Shown: positions 27,718 to 32,485 of the stretch, piece by piece
Layout of the letters: every line of letters begins with the position of its first letter
Position numbering within the stretch: position 1 is the stretch's first letter
From: Sphingomonas sinipercae
GTDB lineage: Bacteria; Pseudomonadota; Alphaproteobacteria; Sphingomonadales; Sphingomonadaceae
Reading direction: 5' to 3'
DNA: 64,000 nt
Assembly: GCF_011302055.1 (NCBI RefSeq)
Contig: NZ_CP049871.1
Location: 1,880,501-1,944,500, forward strand
Translations under genes and position numbers: made by a program
Notes under the pieces: model-generated
Database searches by the model: none
What the model was told of the DNA's origin: nothing
The model's input: only the letters and a program-made list of their open reading frames with translations

Positions 27718-28353
27718 CTAGTGATCGCGGCTAAGTTCGTCCACTTCGCCCATAATTGCCTGAAGCGCCGACTTGTCTGGGTCGGTCTTGTGCTGCCGGC
27801 GTGAGGGCAGCTTTCCGCTGGTCATCAGCGCTTCCAGCGCCACCCGCCCACGGGCGACGCGGCTCTTGATCGTGCCGACCGCGCAGCCGCAGATTTCCGC
27901 GGCTTCTTCATAAGCAAAGCCGCCGGCACCGACCAAGATCAGTGCTTCGCGCTGCGGCTGCGGCAAGTGCATCAGCGCCCGCTGCATGTCGCCAAGCTCG
28001 ATATGTCGGTCTTGGCTCGCCGGAGCGGCAAGGATTTTGGCGGCGGTGACATCGTCCCATTCGCCCTTGAAGCGCGCGCGGCGCATCTGGCTGAGGAACA
28101 GGTTGCGAAGGATGATGAAGGTCCAGGCGCGCATGTTGGTGCCGGCCTGGAAGCGCTTGCGCGCGGCCCAGGCCTTGAGCAGCGTTTCCTGGACGAGGTC
28201 GTCGGCGAGGTCGCGGCTGCCCGAGAGCGAGCGGCCGAACGCGCGCAAATGCGGAATCACGGTCGCCAGCTGATCCTTGAACTCCGGATCGGACAGGGAG
28301 ACGTGTTCCTGCGGCGCGTCGAACGGCGCTTCATTCTCTTCGTCTTCCGCCAT
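27718..28353 (-). CDS. ecfG: General stress response sigma factor EcfG
   Basis: ECF sigma factor of the alphaproteobacterial GSR, about 211 residues. Region 2 reads LRAFGRSLSGSRDLADDLVQETLLKAW and RAWTFIILRNLFLSQMRRARF. Region 4 reads LPQPQREALILVGAGGFAYEEAAEICGCAVGTIKSRVARGR. The small linker between them is typical of EcfG. Free NepR holds EcfG inactive; phosphorylated PhyR relieves this. The ATG at 28353 has GGGGA five bases upstream; ATG 28368 (MSGEL) is an alternative. It is probably co-transcribed with the small membrane protein upstream from an EcfG-type promoter, giving positive feedback. Confidence 0.93.
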   Translation of the reverse strand: MAEDEENEAPFDAPQEHVSLSDPEFKDQLATVIPHLRAFGRSLSGSRDLADDLVQETLLKAWAARKRFQAGTNMRAWTFIILRNLFLSQMRRARFKGEWDDVTAAKILAAPASQDRHIELGDMQRALMHLPQPQREALILVGAGGFAYEEAAEICGCAVGTIKSRVARGRVALEALMTSGKLPSRRQHKTDPDKSALQAIMGEVDELSRDH

Positions 28354-28447
28354 CAATTCCCCACTCATCTCGTCCGCCCGAATGGGCGCAAGCCGGCTTC
28401 CGGCGGCATCCTGTCTACCATCCGGAATGTGAAACTATCCAGACAGC

Positions 28448-28645: not shown

Positions 28646-29443
28646 TCAGGCCGGCACCGTCGCGGCGTCGAAGAACAATGCCTGCGCGATCGCGGCCTTC
28701 ACCGTCGAACGCTGGAACGGCTTGGTGATGAGGAACGTCGGCTCCGGCCGGGTTCCTGTCAGCAAGCGTTCGGGGAAGGCGGTGATGAAGATCACCGGCA
28801 CCGAAAATTCGGCGAGGATGTCCTTTACCGCGTCGATGCCGCTCGAATCGTCGGCCAGCTGGATGTCGGCAAGGACCAGCCCCGGCGGGTGCTGCCGCGC
28901 CTGGCTGACCGCTTCGTCGCGGGTGACGGCAACGCCGGTGACGTTGTGGCCGAGGTCGCGCACGATGGTTTCGATGTCCATCGCGATGATCGGTTCATCC
29001 TCGATGATCAGAACGTCAGTCAGCGTCTGACGCTCGATTTCGCCCAGCGCTTCGGCAACCAGCGAATCCACGTCGGCCGGCGAAGCGTTGATCAGGTAGC
29101 CGGCGTCTTCGGAAGAAAAGCCTTCGAGCGACGTCAGCAGCAATGCCTGGCGCGACAACGGCGTAATCTTCGACAGGCGGGCATGGGCGATGCTTTCGGC
29201 GCCGGCGATGTCGCTGGTCGGCTCCTCTCCCTCCTCGACATTTGCGGTCGACCAGATGGCATGGAAGGTGCGGTACAGGCCCAGGCGCGGATCAACGTCG
29301 CGAGGGAACTCGTCGGGCTGCGCGACGATGGCTTCGAGCGTTGCCCGGACGAAAGCGTCGCCGTGAGTCTGGCTTCCGGTCAGCGCGCGCGCATAGCGGC
29401 GCAAGAATGGCAAATGAGGTGCGAGTTCCTGTCCAAGCGACAT
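28646..29443 (-). CDS. phyR: General stress response regulator PhyR
   Basis: Response regulator of 265 residues with the characteristic inverted order: an N-terminal sigma-like domain (about residues 8-135, LAPHLPFLRRYARALTG and TPLSRQALLLTSLEGFSSEDAGYLI) and a C-terminal receiver domain with acidic pocket IIEDE (147-150), phospho-acceptor Asp193 in VLADIQLAD and a conserved Lys in FLITKPF. When phosphorylated, the sigma-like domain binds NepR and frees EcfG. The start is ATG 29443 with AGGAGAA about 11 bases upstream; the open frame to 29506 adds unlikely residues. It is divergent from nepR. Confidence 0.96.
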   Translation of the reverse strand: MSLGQELAPHLPFLRRYARALTGSQTHGDAFVRATLEAIVAQPDEFPRDVDPRLGLYRTFHAIWSTANVEEGEEPTSDIAGAESIAHARLSKITPLSRQALLLTSLEGFSSEDAGYLINASPADVDSLVAEALGEIERQTLTDVLIIEDEPIIAMDIETIVRDLGHNVTGVAVTRDEAVSQARQHPPGLVLADIQLADDSSGIDAVKDILAEFSVPVIFITAFPERLLTGTRPEPTFLITKPFQRSTVKAAIAQALFFDAATVPA

Positions 29444-29756: not shown

Positions 29757-29951
29757 TTGAGTGACAAGCAGAAGGGCGATTCAATCAACGCTTCAGACGA
29801 TCAAAGCAAACTTCCGCCGAAGTCGGGCGAGAAGAAACCGGGTAAGCAGCGCGCCAACGATGTCGGCCGTGCGTTACGCTCTGTCTATGACGAAACGCTG
29901 CGTGAGGACGTTCCCGACGATTTCAAGGACCTGCTCGGCAAGCTTAGCTGA
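29757..29951 (+). CDS. nepR: Anti-sigma factor NepR
   Basis: A 64-residue anti-sigma factor that binds EcfG and, under stress, phospho-PhyR. After a polar, disordered N-terminus the conserved core VGRALRSVYDETLREDVPDD followed by FKDLLGKLS matches the two-helix NepR signature. The start is TTG at 29757 (TTG AGT GAC AAG) behind an AGGGGGAC/GAGAGG stretch; there is no in-frame ATG upstream of the core. The sensor gene follows after 27 bases, suggesting an operon of nepR, the sensor gene and possibly the small RNA behind it. Confidence 0.93.
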   Translation: MSDKQKGDSINASDDQSKLPPKSGEKKPGKQRANDVGRALRSVYDETLREDVPDDFKDLLGKLS

Positions 29952-29978: not shown

Positions 29979-31517
29979 ATGGCGAGCACTGCCGAACGTT
30001 TCGCACGGCTGTCCACGCCTGCGAAGCTGCTCCTGATCCTGACCGCCGTCCTACTGCCAATCAGCCTGTGGCTGGGCTGGGTCGCGTATAGCGGCTTTCG
30101 CAACGCCAATGATGCGCTGCGCGAACAATCGCTGGAGCGCGCGCGGGTCACGGCCCGTTCAATCGAAAGCCTAATTGCCCGCAACGCGCTGGCGCTTCGA
30201 ATCGCCGCCAACGGCCAGGTCGCGAACCAGCCGGACCCGTGCCTCCGGATTCGGCAATCGCTTTCGATTACCCCGGCCATTGCCCAGCAATTCCGGATCA
30301 ACACCGATACCGGCCTGCCGCTGTGCGGCGTCGGCGACCTCGGTCAGACCGGGCCGCTGCCGCTGATCGCGCCGGGCGACATCCGGCTGTCCGTGGCGCC
30401 CAGACAGGATGCCCTGGTCATCCATGATGGCGTCATAGGCGGCATTGCAACCACGATCCTGACGCCGGACGAGATCCGCTCCGCAACCGACGAATCGGCT
30501 CGCGAGCTCGGCGCCCTGACCATCCGCGACGGCGTTCGGCAACTCAGCATTGTCCGCCCCGCCGAGCCCAGCGGCGAACAGCAGGATTGGGCGACGAGCA
30601 GTTGGCCGGTCGATGGCGGGCCGCTGGTCATCGAGATCCAGTCCCGAGTGCCGCGCGTCACCGTGCTCGACCGGGTGCTGATCCTGTTGCCCTTGCTAAT
30701 GTGGATCATTGCCGCGCTGGCGACCTGGTGGCTGGTCACGCACCTTCTGATCCGGCCGCTGCGTCGCCTGCAGCGCGCGGTCAGCAGCTACAATCCGGGC
30801 GACCCTGGATTGCAGCTGCCGAGCAAGGTTGGGCCGGCCACCGAAATCCAGGACCTGCGCGAAGCCTTCGCCAAGGCGGTGAGCCGGATCGAGGAATCGG
30901 AACACGAAATGTCGGCGGCGCTCGACGGGCAGCGACGACTGGTTCGCGAAGTGCACCACCGCGTGAAGAACAACCTGCAGGTCGTCGCCTCGCTCCTCAA
31001 CATCCATGGCCGCAACGCCAAGGACCTGGAAGTGCGCGCCGCTTACGCCGCGATCGGACGCCGTGTCGGCGCGCTCGCGATCGTCCATCGCAACCATTAT
31101 GCGGAGATGGAGGAGAACCGGGGCATCGCGCTTCGGCCGCTGCTGTCCGAGCTTGCCGCGGAGCTTCGGGCAGGCGCTCCGGAGCAGGCGCGCAAGCTGT
31201 CGATCGACCTAACCGTCGACACGCTCCACTGCACCCAGGATGCGGCCGTTTCCGTCGCGTTCCTGGTCACCGAAGTGGTCGAGTATGCAATGCTCAACCG
31301 GCCGGACCAACCGGTCGTTGTGACCCTCCACCGCACCTCCGATACCACGGCGCGGATGACGTTGAGCAGCCCGGTGCTGGTGCCCGGGGCCGATGGCGAC
31401 CGGGAGAACGTGCAGTTCGAACGGATCATCGGTGGAATGGCCAAGCAGCTCCGCTCGAACCTGGAGCGGGAGCCCGGACGCTACAGCGTCGACATGCCTG
31501 TGTTTCCTCCGCGCTGA
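29979..31517 (+). CDS. PhyP-like membrane sensor with HisKA_2 domain and degenerate ATPase domain
   Basis: A 512-residue membrane protein: TM1 at about 17-36, a periplasmic sensor region to about 230, TM2 at about 233-257, a HAMP-like linker, then a HisKA_2 helix with the phospho-acceptor motif HRVKN (His327) in EVHHRVKNNLQVV. In the C-terminal HATPase region the N box is TEVVEYA (431-437). The conserved Mg-coordinating Asn is Tyr436, and no clear G1 (DxGxG) box follows. Such a protein probably cannot use ATP well. Its place beside nepR/phyR matches PhyP, which acts as a PhyR phosphatase in Sphingomonas, so it may keep the GSR off. That role is inference. Confidence 0.82.
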   Translation: MASTAERFARLSTPAKLLLILTAVLLPISLWLGWVAYSGFRNANDALREQSLERARVTARSIESLIARNALALRIAANGQVANQPDPCLRIRQSLSITPAIAQQFRINTDTGLPLCGVGDLGQTGPLPLIAPGDIRLSVAPRQDALVIHDGVIGGIATTILTPDEIRSATDESARELGALTIRDGVRQLSIVRPAEPSGEQQDWATSSWPVDGGPLVIEIQSRVPRVTVLDRVLILLPLLMWIIAALATWWLVTHLLIRPLRRLQRAVSSYNPGDPGLQLPSKVGPATEIQDLREAFAKAVSRIEESEHEMSAALDGQRRLVREVHHRVKNNLQVVASLLNIHGRNAKDLEVRAAYAAIGRRVGALAIVHRNHYAEMEENRGIALRPLLSELAAELRAGAPEQARKLSIDLTVDTLHCTQDAAVSVAFLVTEVVEYAMLNRPDQPVVVTLHRTSDTTARMTLSSPVLVPGADGDRENVQFERIIGGMAKQLRSNLEREPGRYSVDMPVFPPR

Positions 31518-31578: not shown

Positions 31579-31604
31579 GGAACCGCTTTTGAAGACTGCA
31601 CGTT
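31579..31604 (+). promoter_or_regulatory. EcfG (GSR) promoter of a candidate small RNA
   Basis: GGAAC (31579-31583), exactly 17 bases, CGTT (31601-31604), on the plus strand. It is an exact consensus match in the 134-base gap between the sensor gene stop and the convergent tatC stop. No protein-coding gene lies downstream on this strand; the first ATG gives only four codons before a stop. Confidence 0.85.
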
Positions 31605-31610
31605 ATGCTG

Positions 31611-31716
31611 TTCGGATAGTGAACTTTTGCCCCCCCGCTCTCGCTATCCGCTTAAATGGGCCCGGAACCGCCAACCCTCCCCCCCCCCGGTGGCGCTTCC
31701 GGGCCCTCTCTTTTTT
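31611..31716 (+). ncRNA. Candidate GsrN-like stress-induced small RNA with C-rich loops
   Basis: Predicted transcript of about 105 nt between an exact EcfG promoter and a strong terminator. The 5' hairpin pairs CGGATAG (31613-31619) with CTATCCG (31644-31650) and exposes a 24-base loop containing seven C residues (31630-31636). A short A/T linker leads to the terminator hairpin, whose loop contains ten C residues (31679-31688). Caulobacter GsrN, a sigma-T-dependent small RNA, has the same plan: a stress promoter, a 5' hairpin with a C-rich target-binding loop and a terminator hairpin. G-rich ribosome-binding sites would be natural targets. The RNA itself is inferred, not observed. Confidence 0.72.
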
Positions 31717-32485
31717 CTTCTGCTGAGATCGGGCCCGCCGCGGCCTTTCGTGCCGCGCGCCAGTGGGTCAGGCGGATCGCCAGGATGGCGAATTCGTAAA
31801 GCAGATATAGCGGCACCAGCATCATCAGCATCGACACTGCGTCCGGCGGCGTGAGCACCGCTGCGACCGCGGCGGAGGCAACTGCTGCGTAGCGCCGGTG
31901 CTTGGTCAAATGATCGAGCGTGATGATGCCGGTGCGCTCAAGGATCATCAGGAGGACTGGGGTCAGGAAGGCGACCCCAAAGCCGAACAGGAAGCGGGTG
32001 CAGAAGCTCAGGTAATTGCCGACCGCCGGAAGCGCTTCCTGCTGGATCCCGCCGATCTCCCCCTGAAAGCCGAGCAGGAAGCTAAGCGCCCACGGCATGG
32101 CCACGAAGTAAGCGAAGGCCGCGCCGCCGCCGAAGAAGACCGGGGTCAGCAACAAGAAGGGCAACAGCGCCTTCTTCTCCTTCATGTACAGGCCGGGCGC
32201 GACGAACCGCCACATCTGCGTCGCGAAGAAGGGGAAGCCGAGCATGAGCGCCGCGAACAGCGCCACTTTCACTTCGACAAAGAAGGCTTCGAAGATGTCG
32301 GTGTAGATGATCTTCCCTTGGCCGGCGGCGATCAGCGGCTGCACCAGCACCGCGAAGATCGGGCGCGCGAAGTAGAGGCAGGCGAAGAACAGGGCCGCAA
32401 GCACGCCGACCGACCACAGCAGCCGGCGCCTCAGCTCGATCAAATGATCGAGCAGCGGCGCCTTGGTCTCGTCGATTTCGCTCAC
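31652..32485 (-). CDS. tatC: Sec-independent translocase subunit TatC
   Basis: Six-helix membrane protein, 277 residues, that recognises twin-arginine signal peptides with TatB. The conserved cytoplasmic N-terminus reads LLDHLIELRRRLLWSV, with FEAFFVEVKVALFAAL and FLTPVLLMILERTGII further on. The C-terminal tail after about residue 250 (ISAEEKREGPEAPPGGGRVGG) is hydrophilic and is encoded opposite the terminator hairpin of the small RNA, so its Gly/Pro content may reflect that constraint. The start overlaps the tatB stop by 4 bases (ATGA). Confidence 0.96.
   Translation of the reverse strand: MSEIDETKAPLLDHLIELRRRLLWSVGVLAALFFACLYFARPIFAVLVQPLIAAGQGKIIYTDIFEAFFVEVKVALFAALMLGFPFFATQMWRFVAPGLYMKEKKALLPFLLLTPVFFGGGAAFAYFVAMPWALSFLLGFQGEIGGIQQEALPAVGNYLSFCTRFLFGFGVAFLTPVLLMILERTGIITLDHLTKHRRYAAVASAAVAAVLTPPDAVSMLMMLVPLYLLYEFAILAIRLTHWRAARKAAAGPISAEEKREGPEAPPGGGRVGGSGPI
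31658..31721 (+). terminator. Strong intrinsic terminator of the candidate small RNA (and of nepR-sensor)
   Basis: GGGCCCGGAA (31658-31667) pairs perfectly with TTCCGGGCCC (31697-31706). After one mismatch, CGCCA/TGGCG extends the stem. The tail is TCTCTTTTTTCTTCT. The hairpin is antisense to the last codons of tatC, whose stop is at 31652. Confidence 0.88.

Follow-up and report, generated by a model that had tools for sequence, protein, structure and literature searches.

In the general stress response of alphaproteobacteria, the RNA arm that has been studied by experiment is GsrN of Caulobacter crescentus. According to the available text of PMC5869019, it is a sigma-T-dependent RNA of approximately 100 nt, with six C residues in its 5′ loop and an intrinsic terminator; it protects from peroxide, is processed to a 5′ isoform and is stabilised by Hfq. 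Pairing of the C-loop with the katG leader is shown there by compensatory mutation. In the same text, BLASTn matches to GsrN are confined to the Caulobacteraceae, and relatives are proposed in the Caulobacteraceae and several Rhizobiales, typically but not universally near general-stress genes. Putative GsrN-like RNAs of the Rhizobiaceae were predicted from three features, namely position in the stress locus, a site for EcfG and a C-rich loop exposed in the 5′ part, and Erythrobacter litoralis is listed in the legend to Figure 9 as lacking an apparent gsrN-like gene (PMC5869019).

For the sphingomonads, the accessible portions of PMC6599016 and PMC7083833, which deal with EcfG control, do not mention an sRNA as part of the response, and the sRNA mentions in those of PMC8103513 concern RpoE. 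The SuhB RNA of Sphingopyxis granuli, cited by title in PMC7083833 in connection with tetralin catabolite repression, is also a small RNA of a sphingomonad; it is set beside the present RNA by that title alone. No paper treating GsrN together with Sphingomonas was found in open-access text. Nor was a description of either of the RNAs reported below found in the open-access literature, which by itself does not prove absence.

The DNA analysed here is a 64,000-nt window of the 2.07-Mb single-contig genome of Sphingomonas sinipercae. It contains a unit, designated RNA-A, which, judging from its sequence, is very likely a conserved, EcfG-driven small RNA gene. A second C-loop RNA, found in relatives, is designated RNA-B.

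The RNA-A unit and its locus

RNA-A follows the HWE/HisKA_2 kinase gene (plus strand) and faces tatC (minus strand), within the general-stress locus (Table 1). The original prediction had placed a stress small RNA at the end of the nepR-sensor operon inside this locus, and the Pfam domains of the neighbouring genes bear out that placement. The sigma factor gene is taken as ecfG, a name based on its sigma-70 domains and its neighbourhood.

Table 1. Features of the RNA-A locus, in positions of the window. The ends of the small RNA are predicted, the 5′ end from the promoter and the 3′ end from the hairpin and T-tract.
Feature	Position	Strand	Basis
ecfG, putative sigma factor for the RNA promoter	27718..28368	-	Pfam sigma-70 regions 2 and 4
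phyR, general stress response regulator	28646..29443	-	Pfam PhyR domains; start picked by eye
nepR, anti-sigma factor, TTG start	29757..29951	+	Pfam NepR, E 3e-11
HWE/HisKA_2 sensor kinase, upstream of RNA	29979..31517	+	Pfam
EcfG-type promoter GGAAC-N17-CGTT	31579..31604	+	Sequence; GGAAC 31579-31583, CGTT 31601-31604
Predicted small RNA (RNA-A), ~105 nt	31611..31716	+	Fold; covariance models R1 and R2
5′ hairpin (hairpin 1) CGGATAG...CTATCCG, 9-10 bp stem, C7 loop 31630-31636	31613..31650	+	Sequence
tatC, frame crosses terminator hairpin on opposite strand	31652..32485	-	Pfam TatC
Long terminator-like hairpin GGGCCCGG...CCGGGCCC, C10 loop 31679-31688	31658..31706	+	Sequence
T-rich tail after long hairpin	31707-31721	+	Sequence

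The exact EcfG promoter and the 5′ hairpin with seven C in its loop, both part of that prediction, can be read directly from the plus strand. The 111 nt from 31611 to 31721 fold with a predicted energy of -46.6 kcal/mol (z -6.5), a value reached by 0 of 200 shuffled sequences. The element described as a strong terminator stood in part: the hairpin and its C10 loop are present and the T-tract is good in this genome, but the T-tract is weak in many relatives, the longest T-run after the hairpin being only 1-3 in 29 of 49 same-genus units. The 3′ end of the RNA is therefore uncertain.

The promoter motif was dropped as sole evidence. The exact GGAAC-N17-CGTT sequence occurs at 8 sites in the genome versus 19 for a backward control; the bare motif is thus not above chance, and it is conservation that carries the case. 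A search of the whole window against Rfam (release 15) gave no family at its gathering score. The best near-match among alphaproteobacterial sRNAs, ar14 (RF02344), reached 15.3 bits (E 0.54), far short of its gathering score of 58.8, and is no match. CcsR1 (RF02791), the CCUCCUCCC motif stress RNA, resembles RNA-A in having a C-rich motif and is stress-induced by the Rfam description, but its 9.7 bits lie far below the gathering score of 65.3.

Conservation within the genus

Conservation of the hairpins and their C-run loops in relatives had been proposed as a check, and the result was favourable. Besides its source genome, a 181-base DNA query matched 34 of the 36 same-genus genomes searched; the two without a match are 77% and 79% complete, and one match (G030:C10) is partial, at a contig start. 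None of 24 genomes from other families of the order was matched.

Forty-nine same-genus units from 48 genomes were aligned; these were chosen because they matched, and the alignment speaks of conservation within the unit rather than of prevalence. It is apparent that the promoter, as GGAAC-N16/17-CGTT, is kept in all 49 (spacer of 16 in 17 units and of 17 in 32), as is a step of 9 nt from CGTT to GGATAG. Among pairs of equal length, mean pairwise identity was 0.98 for hairpin 1 and 0.93 for the long hairpin. The corresponding values elsewhere in the 49 units were 0.46 for the N17 spacer, 0.34 for the 15 nt upstream and 0.44 for the 20 nt downstream, and the adjoining kinase has approximately 44-65% protein identity among full-length matches.

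In 34 of the 46 same-genus loci (of 49) that could be analysed, the C10 hairpin is entered or crossed by the tatC frame on the opposite strand. A loop of exactly ten C was found in 29 of these 34, versus 2 of the 12 in which tatC stops earlier. These counts, which are uncorrected for relatedness, suggest that the tatC frame locks the length of the C-run within the genus. Antisense control of tatC was rejected as the main function, since among the loci examined the overlap is confined to part of one genus.

Covariation of the predicted stems

Selection on the RNA itself was assessed with 75 diverse sequences, in an alignment fitted to the model, which favours a covariation result. Standard pairs made up 95.5% of pair cells, and 22 of 27 pairs had changed on both sides. 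On no covariation measure did any of 500 shuffles reach the observed value, and structures slid along the alignment dropped to 31-41% paired. In the wider family, 7 of the 10 stem pairs of hairpin 1 were altered on both sides, as were all 15 pairs of the two helices of the terminator-like hairpin in the 75 sequences. Three divergent loci (L255, L256 and L259) have a rewritten hairpin 1 stem, with the run of six or seven C still in the loop. Within the genus, the length of the second C-run ranges between 7 and 11, so that any reading frame through it is broken.

Distribution in the family, order and class

A pattern scan of the named genomes gave at least 120 matching stretches. Eighty loci among the matches listed come from Sphingomonas, Sphingomicrobium, Sphingosinicella, Stakelama, Hephaestia, Rhizorhabdus, Sphingorhabdus, Parasphingopyxis and unclassified bins. 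GGAAC-N15-18-[CG]GTT precedes the RNA in 75 of these 80 loci, and GGAAC with an altered -10 element in the remaining five. Neighbours detected in the same loci, which end at 8 kb or at contig ends, were the kinase (72), tatC (69), phyR (61), ecfG (54) and nepR (44).

Two covariance models, R1 (45 sequences) and R2 (75 sequences), were run against 396 genomes of the order. R1 matched 99 of them (E<=1e-3) and R2 matched 132 at E<=0.1; at E<=2e-6, a hand count gave 112 genomes in 17 genera, all of one family. All of these counts include the sequences that built the models. Across 367 genomes of the class, among which the Caulobacteraceae are possibly not represented, R2 matched two members of the window's own family; the one other match was weak (E 0.0026), and nothing outside that family was convincing. 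Two R2 matches were discarded, L272 for the absence of both an EcfG promoter and nearby stress genes, and L274 for the absence of nearby stress genes.

These data bear on the description of the RNA as GsrN-like. RNA-A shares with GsrN an EcfG-type promoter directly upstream (by sequence), a C-run in the loop of a 5′ hairpin (in the predicted structure), a length of approximately 100 nt (predicted) and a site near general-stress genes. At the 3′ end, the terminator of GsrN is intrinsic, whereas in RNA-A the hairpin is kept and the quality of the T-tract differs between genomes, as described above. Unlike GsrN, RNA-A carries a further and longer run of C in its terminator loop and was found only in the sphingomonad family. 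The Rhizobiaceae RNAs, in the available text, rest partly on transcript data, whereas RNA-A is a prediction from sequence. The promoter type, C-loop and terminator-like hairpin thus agree with the original prediction at the level of design, and the restriction of R2 to one family does not extend that agreement to family membership. It is fair to call RNA-A GsrN-like in design on the strength of this comparison; homology to GsrN is not claimed.

Putative partners of the C-loops

The pattern GGGGGG-N2-12-ATG gave 46 matches in the genome (approximately 39 distinct sites), versus 7 in the backward control. Such G-runs before start codons may simply be G-rich ribosome sites, a reading which the backward control allows. 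Twenty-six of the 46 matches were translated, and several gave short frames only.

The nepR leader was of particular interest. By eye, the C-loop ACCUUUUGCCCCCC could pair along nepR GGGGGGACGAGAGGU, a single mismatch and two G-U pairs being included. Of 30 same-genus loci, 25 have a G-run of at least five in the nepR leader; among the wider-family leaders that were located, in a loosely defined region, the count is only 20 of 66. The energy of the nepR pairing was equalled by 407 of 10,660 stretches of the window with the RNA's own loop, and by 85 of 10,660 with the consensus loop, counts that include the antisense of the RNA itself. As the pairing energy is not exceptional and the G-run is found in fewer than a third of the wider-family leaders, nepR was rejected as an established target. 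Within the genus, nepR often has a TTG start and, in the 25 bases before the gene, a leader with a G-run of the AGGGGGGACGAGAGG type.

A GGGGGG sequence also lies six bases before the ATG of ctrA (L289; G000:C1:834531-834545, minus strand), whose product is identified as CtrA by an NCBIfam equivalog (415 bits versus a cutoff of 350). The nepR and ctrA leaders are candidates for partners of the C-loop RNA. Another such site, GGGGGGCTG-ATG, is situated upstream of a RatA-like protein (L304; G000:C1:1259243-1259254, plus strand), which scored 84 bits, under the NCBIfam cutoff of 258.

Probable function of RNA-A

The reading that we favour, with a probability of roughly three in four, takes 31611 to approximately 31716 as a separate small RNA gene that belongs to the general stress response, is driven by EcfG and acts in trans in the manner of GsrN. 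PhyR would free EcfG from NepR, and EcfG would then read the promoter. The transcript would span both hairpins, starting at the foot of hairpin 1 and terminating with the second one. The exposed C-run in the loop of hairpin 1, perhaps together with the one in the terminator-like hairpin, would pair with G-rich leaders of target mRNAs and so alter their translation or stability, as with Caulobacter GsrN. The occurrence of RNA-B in many relatives without RNA-A speaks for this reading.

The C-loops might instead bind a protein, or mimic an anti-Shine-Dalgarno sequence, without chosen mRNAs. This is unlikely. Conservation of the loops while G-rich sites are widespread would fit such a decoy, and two separate C-loops resemble a repeated binding site; on the other hand, nothing in the present data favours a protein, and the compensatory mutations reported for GsrN and katG in the available text of PMC5869019 point to pairing with an mRNA.

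We consider it distinctly improbable that the unit is a bidirectional gene-end element, in which the long hairpin would both terminate the nepR-kinase operon and shield the tatC mRNA at its end, hairpin 1 being accessory to it and no separate RNA acting. Such an element would suit a position between convergent genes and the overlap with the tatC 3′ end in three-quarters of the analysable genus loci. It is at odds with the promoter kept between the kinase and the hairpins in all 49 units, with hairpin 1 being the most conserved part, and with numerous loci outside the genus, such as L124, L136 and L152, where the RNA stays although tatC is hundreds of bases away or is undetected within the locus.

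There is very little to recommend the view that the unit belongs to the nepR-kinase mRNA as a 3′ UTR acting in cis, reached by read-through and pairing with the nepR leader of the same transcript. The unit is on the same strand and directly downstream, and the nepR leaders of the genus mostly carry the G-run; but the RNA has its own promoter, the nepR pairing is not exceptional, and the kinase match ends approximately 350-1150 bases upstream in L128, L152, L160 and L162. It is highly improbable that the unit is a short protein-coding gene, or an element working at the DNA level such as a G-run structure on the tatC strand, despite the long C-runs and an ATG at 31656 that opens a frame, because the ATG is not kept, the variable C-run breaks frames and the base pairs covary. 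The earlier claim that the promoter has a non-coding RNA gene rather than a protein gene behind it is supported.

If the favoured small RNA reading is correct, RNA-A and the RNA-B described next are concrete loci for deletion in laboratory strains.

RNA-B, a second candidate C-loop RNA, usually beside phyR

Thirty relatives without RNA-A were searched, and PhyR was detected (E<=1e-30) in 24. Of these 24 loci, 17 have a run of six or seven C at a distance of 186-286 bases upstream of phyR, and 5 have one approximately 1000 bases upstream. Nineteen of these C-runs belong to RNA-B, which consists of a hairpin, TGTCACCGCCGAGACCCCCCCTCCCGTCC...GGTGATA, followed by a terminator. Loci with RNA-B are L325-L343 and L347-L376 (for example, L325:1180-1272, minus strand). 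Among the 24 PhyR-bearing genomes, 19 have a clear RNA-B (in one of these, G147, which is outside the 80-genome set below, the assignment is based on its sequence) and one has a divergent RNA-B (G211, E 5e-4); in two more, the phyR position is occupied by a divergent C-loop RNA, weakly recognised by R2, and in two a C-loop RNA was not found. RNA-B was present in none of the six genomes without PhyR.

In 35 distinct sequences (48 loci with repeats), the RNA-B promoter reads GGAAC-N16 followed by CATT in 30, CGTT in 3 and CGTA in 2, so that most differ from the EcfG -10 element by one base. The predicted structure is supported overall, although hairpin 1 of RNA-B hardly varies. In a search of eight RNA-B loci against Rfam, RNA-B itself was unmatched and two weak matches were obtained elsewhere in the loci.

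A covariance model (R3) built from 18 RNA-B sequences was applied to two sets of genomes hand-picked for spread across genera, 80 without an R2 match and 60 with RNA-A. Strong matches (E<=6.4e-14) were obtained in 44 of the 80; 17 of these 44 genomes supplied the model, which leaves 27 independent. The other 36 had no strong RNA-B, and PhyR is missing in some of them. None of the 60 RNA-A genomes had a strong match, the single weak one (G338, E 4e-4) having no C-loop. phyR was within reach in 28 of 30 RNA-B loci examined.

RNA-A and RNA-B exclude each other in the genomes sampled, and the presence of RNA-B in many relatives without RNA-A is the more surprising result of this analysis. Homology between the two was rejected, since the models do not cross-match convincingly. 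A shared role would be consistent with their distribution and design. RNA-A, after the kinase, and RNA-B, at phyR, have in common an EcfG-type promoter, a C-loop in a 5′ hairpin and a terminator, but their sequences differ. It is conceivable, albeit doubtful, that the sphingomonad stress locus carries one of two interchangeable RNAs, with the C-loop as the conserved working part and nepR as a target. If so, a C-loop would be conserved in a group whose one member in the available text of PMC5869019 shows no counterpart. Action on nepR would, speculatively, produce positive feedback that acts on the anti-sigma factor. With two conserved candidates among the sphingomonads, an RNA of this kind would seem to be a nearly constant component of the stress response.

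In 114 genomes of the class, R3 gave weak matches only (best E 2.7e-4). The 12 that were listed, and G338, were rejected, as an EcfG-type promoter is absent from the 60 bases upstream; where these matches have runs of at least five C, the runs sit in the terminator stem. One weak match in another family of the class (L384, from G516) has GGGACCCCTCCCGTCC, which resembles the RNA-B loop, possibly by chance, an EcfG-type promoter being absent upstream.

There is one exception to the separation of RNA-A and RNA-B. R2 weakly matches L344 (E 2.5e-5) and L345 (E 6e-4) at the phyR position, where both loci have an EcfG-type promoter followed by a divergent C-loop RNA (L344:1213-1308, minus strand; L345:2450-2548, plus strand). 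These two RNAs possibly link RNA-A and RNA-B.
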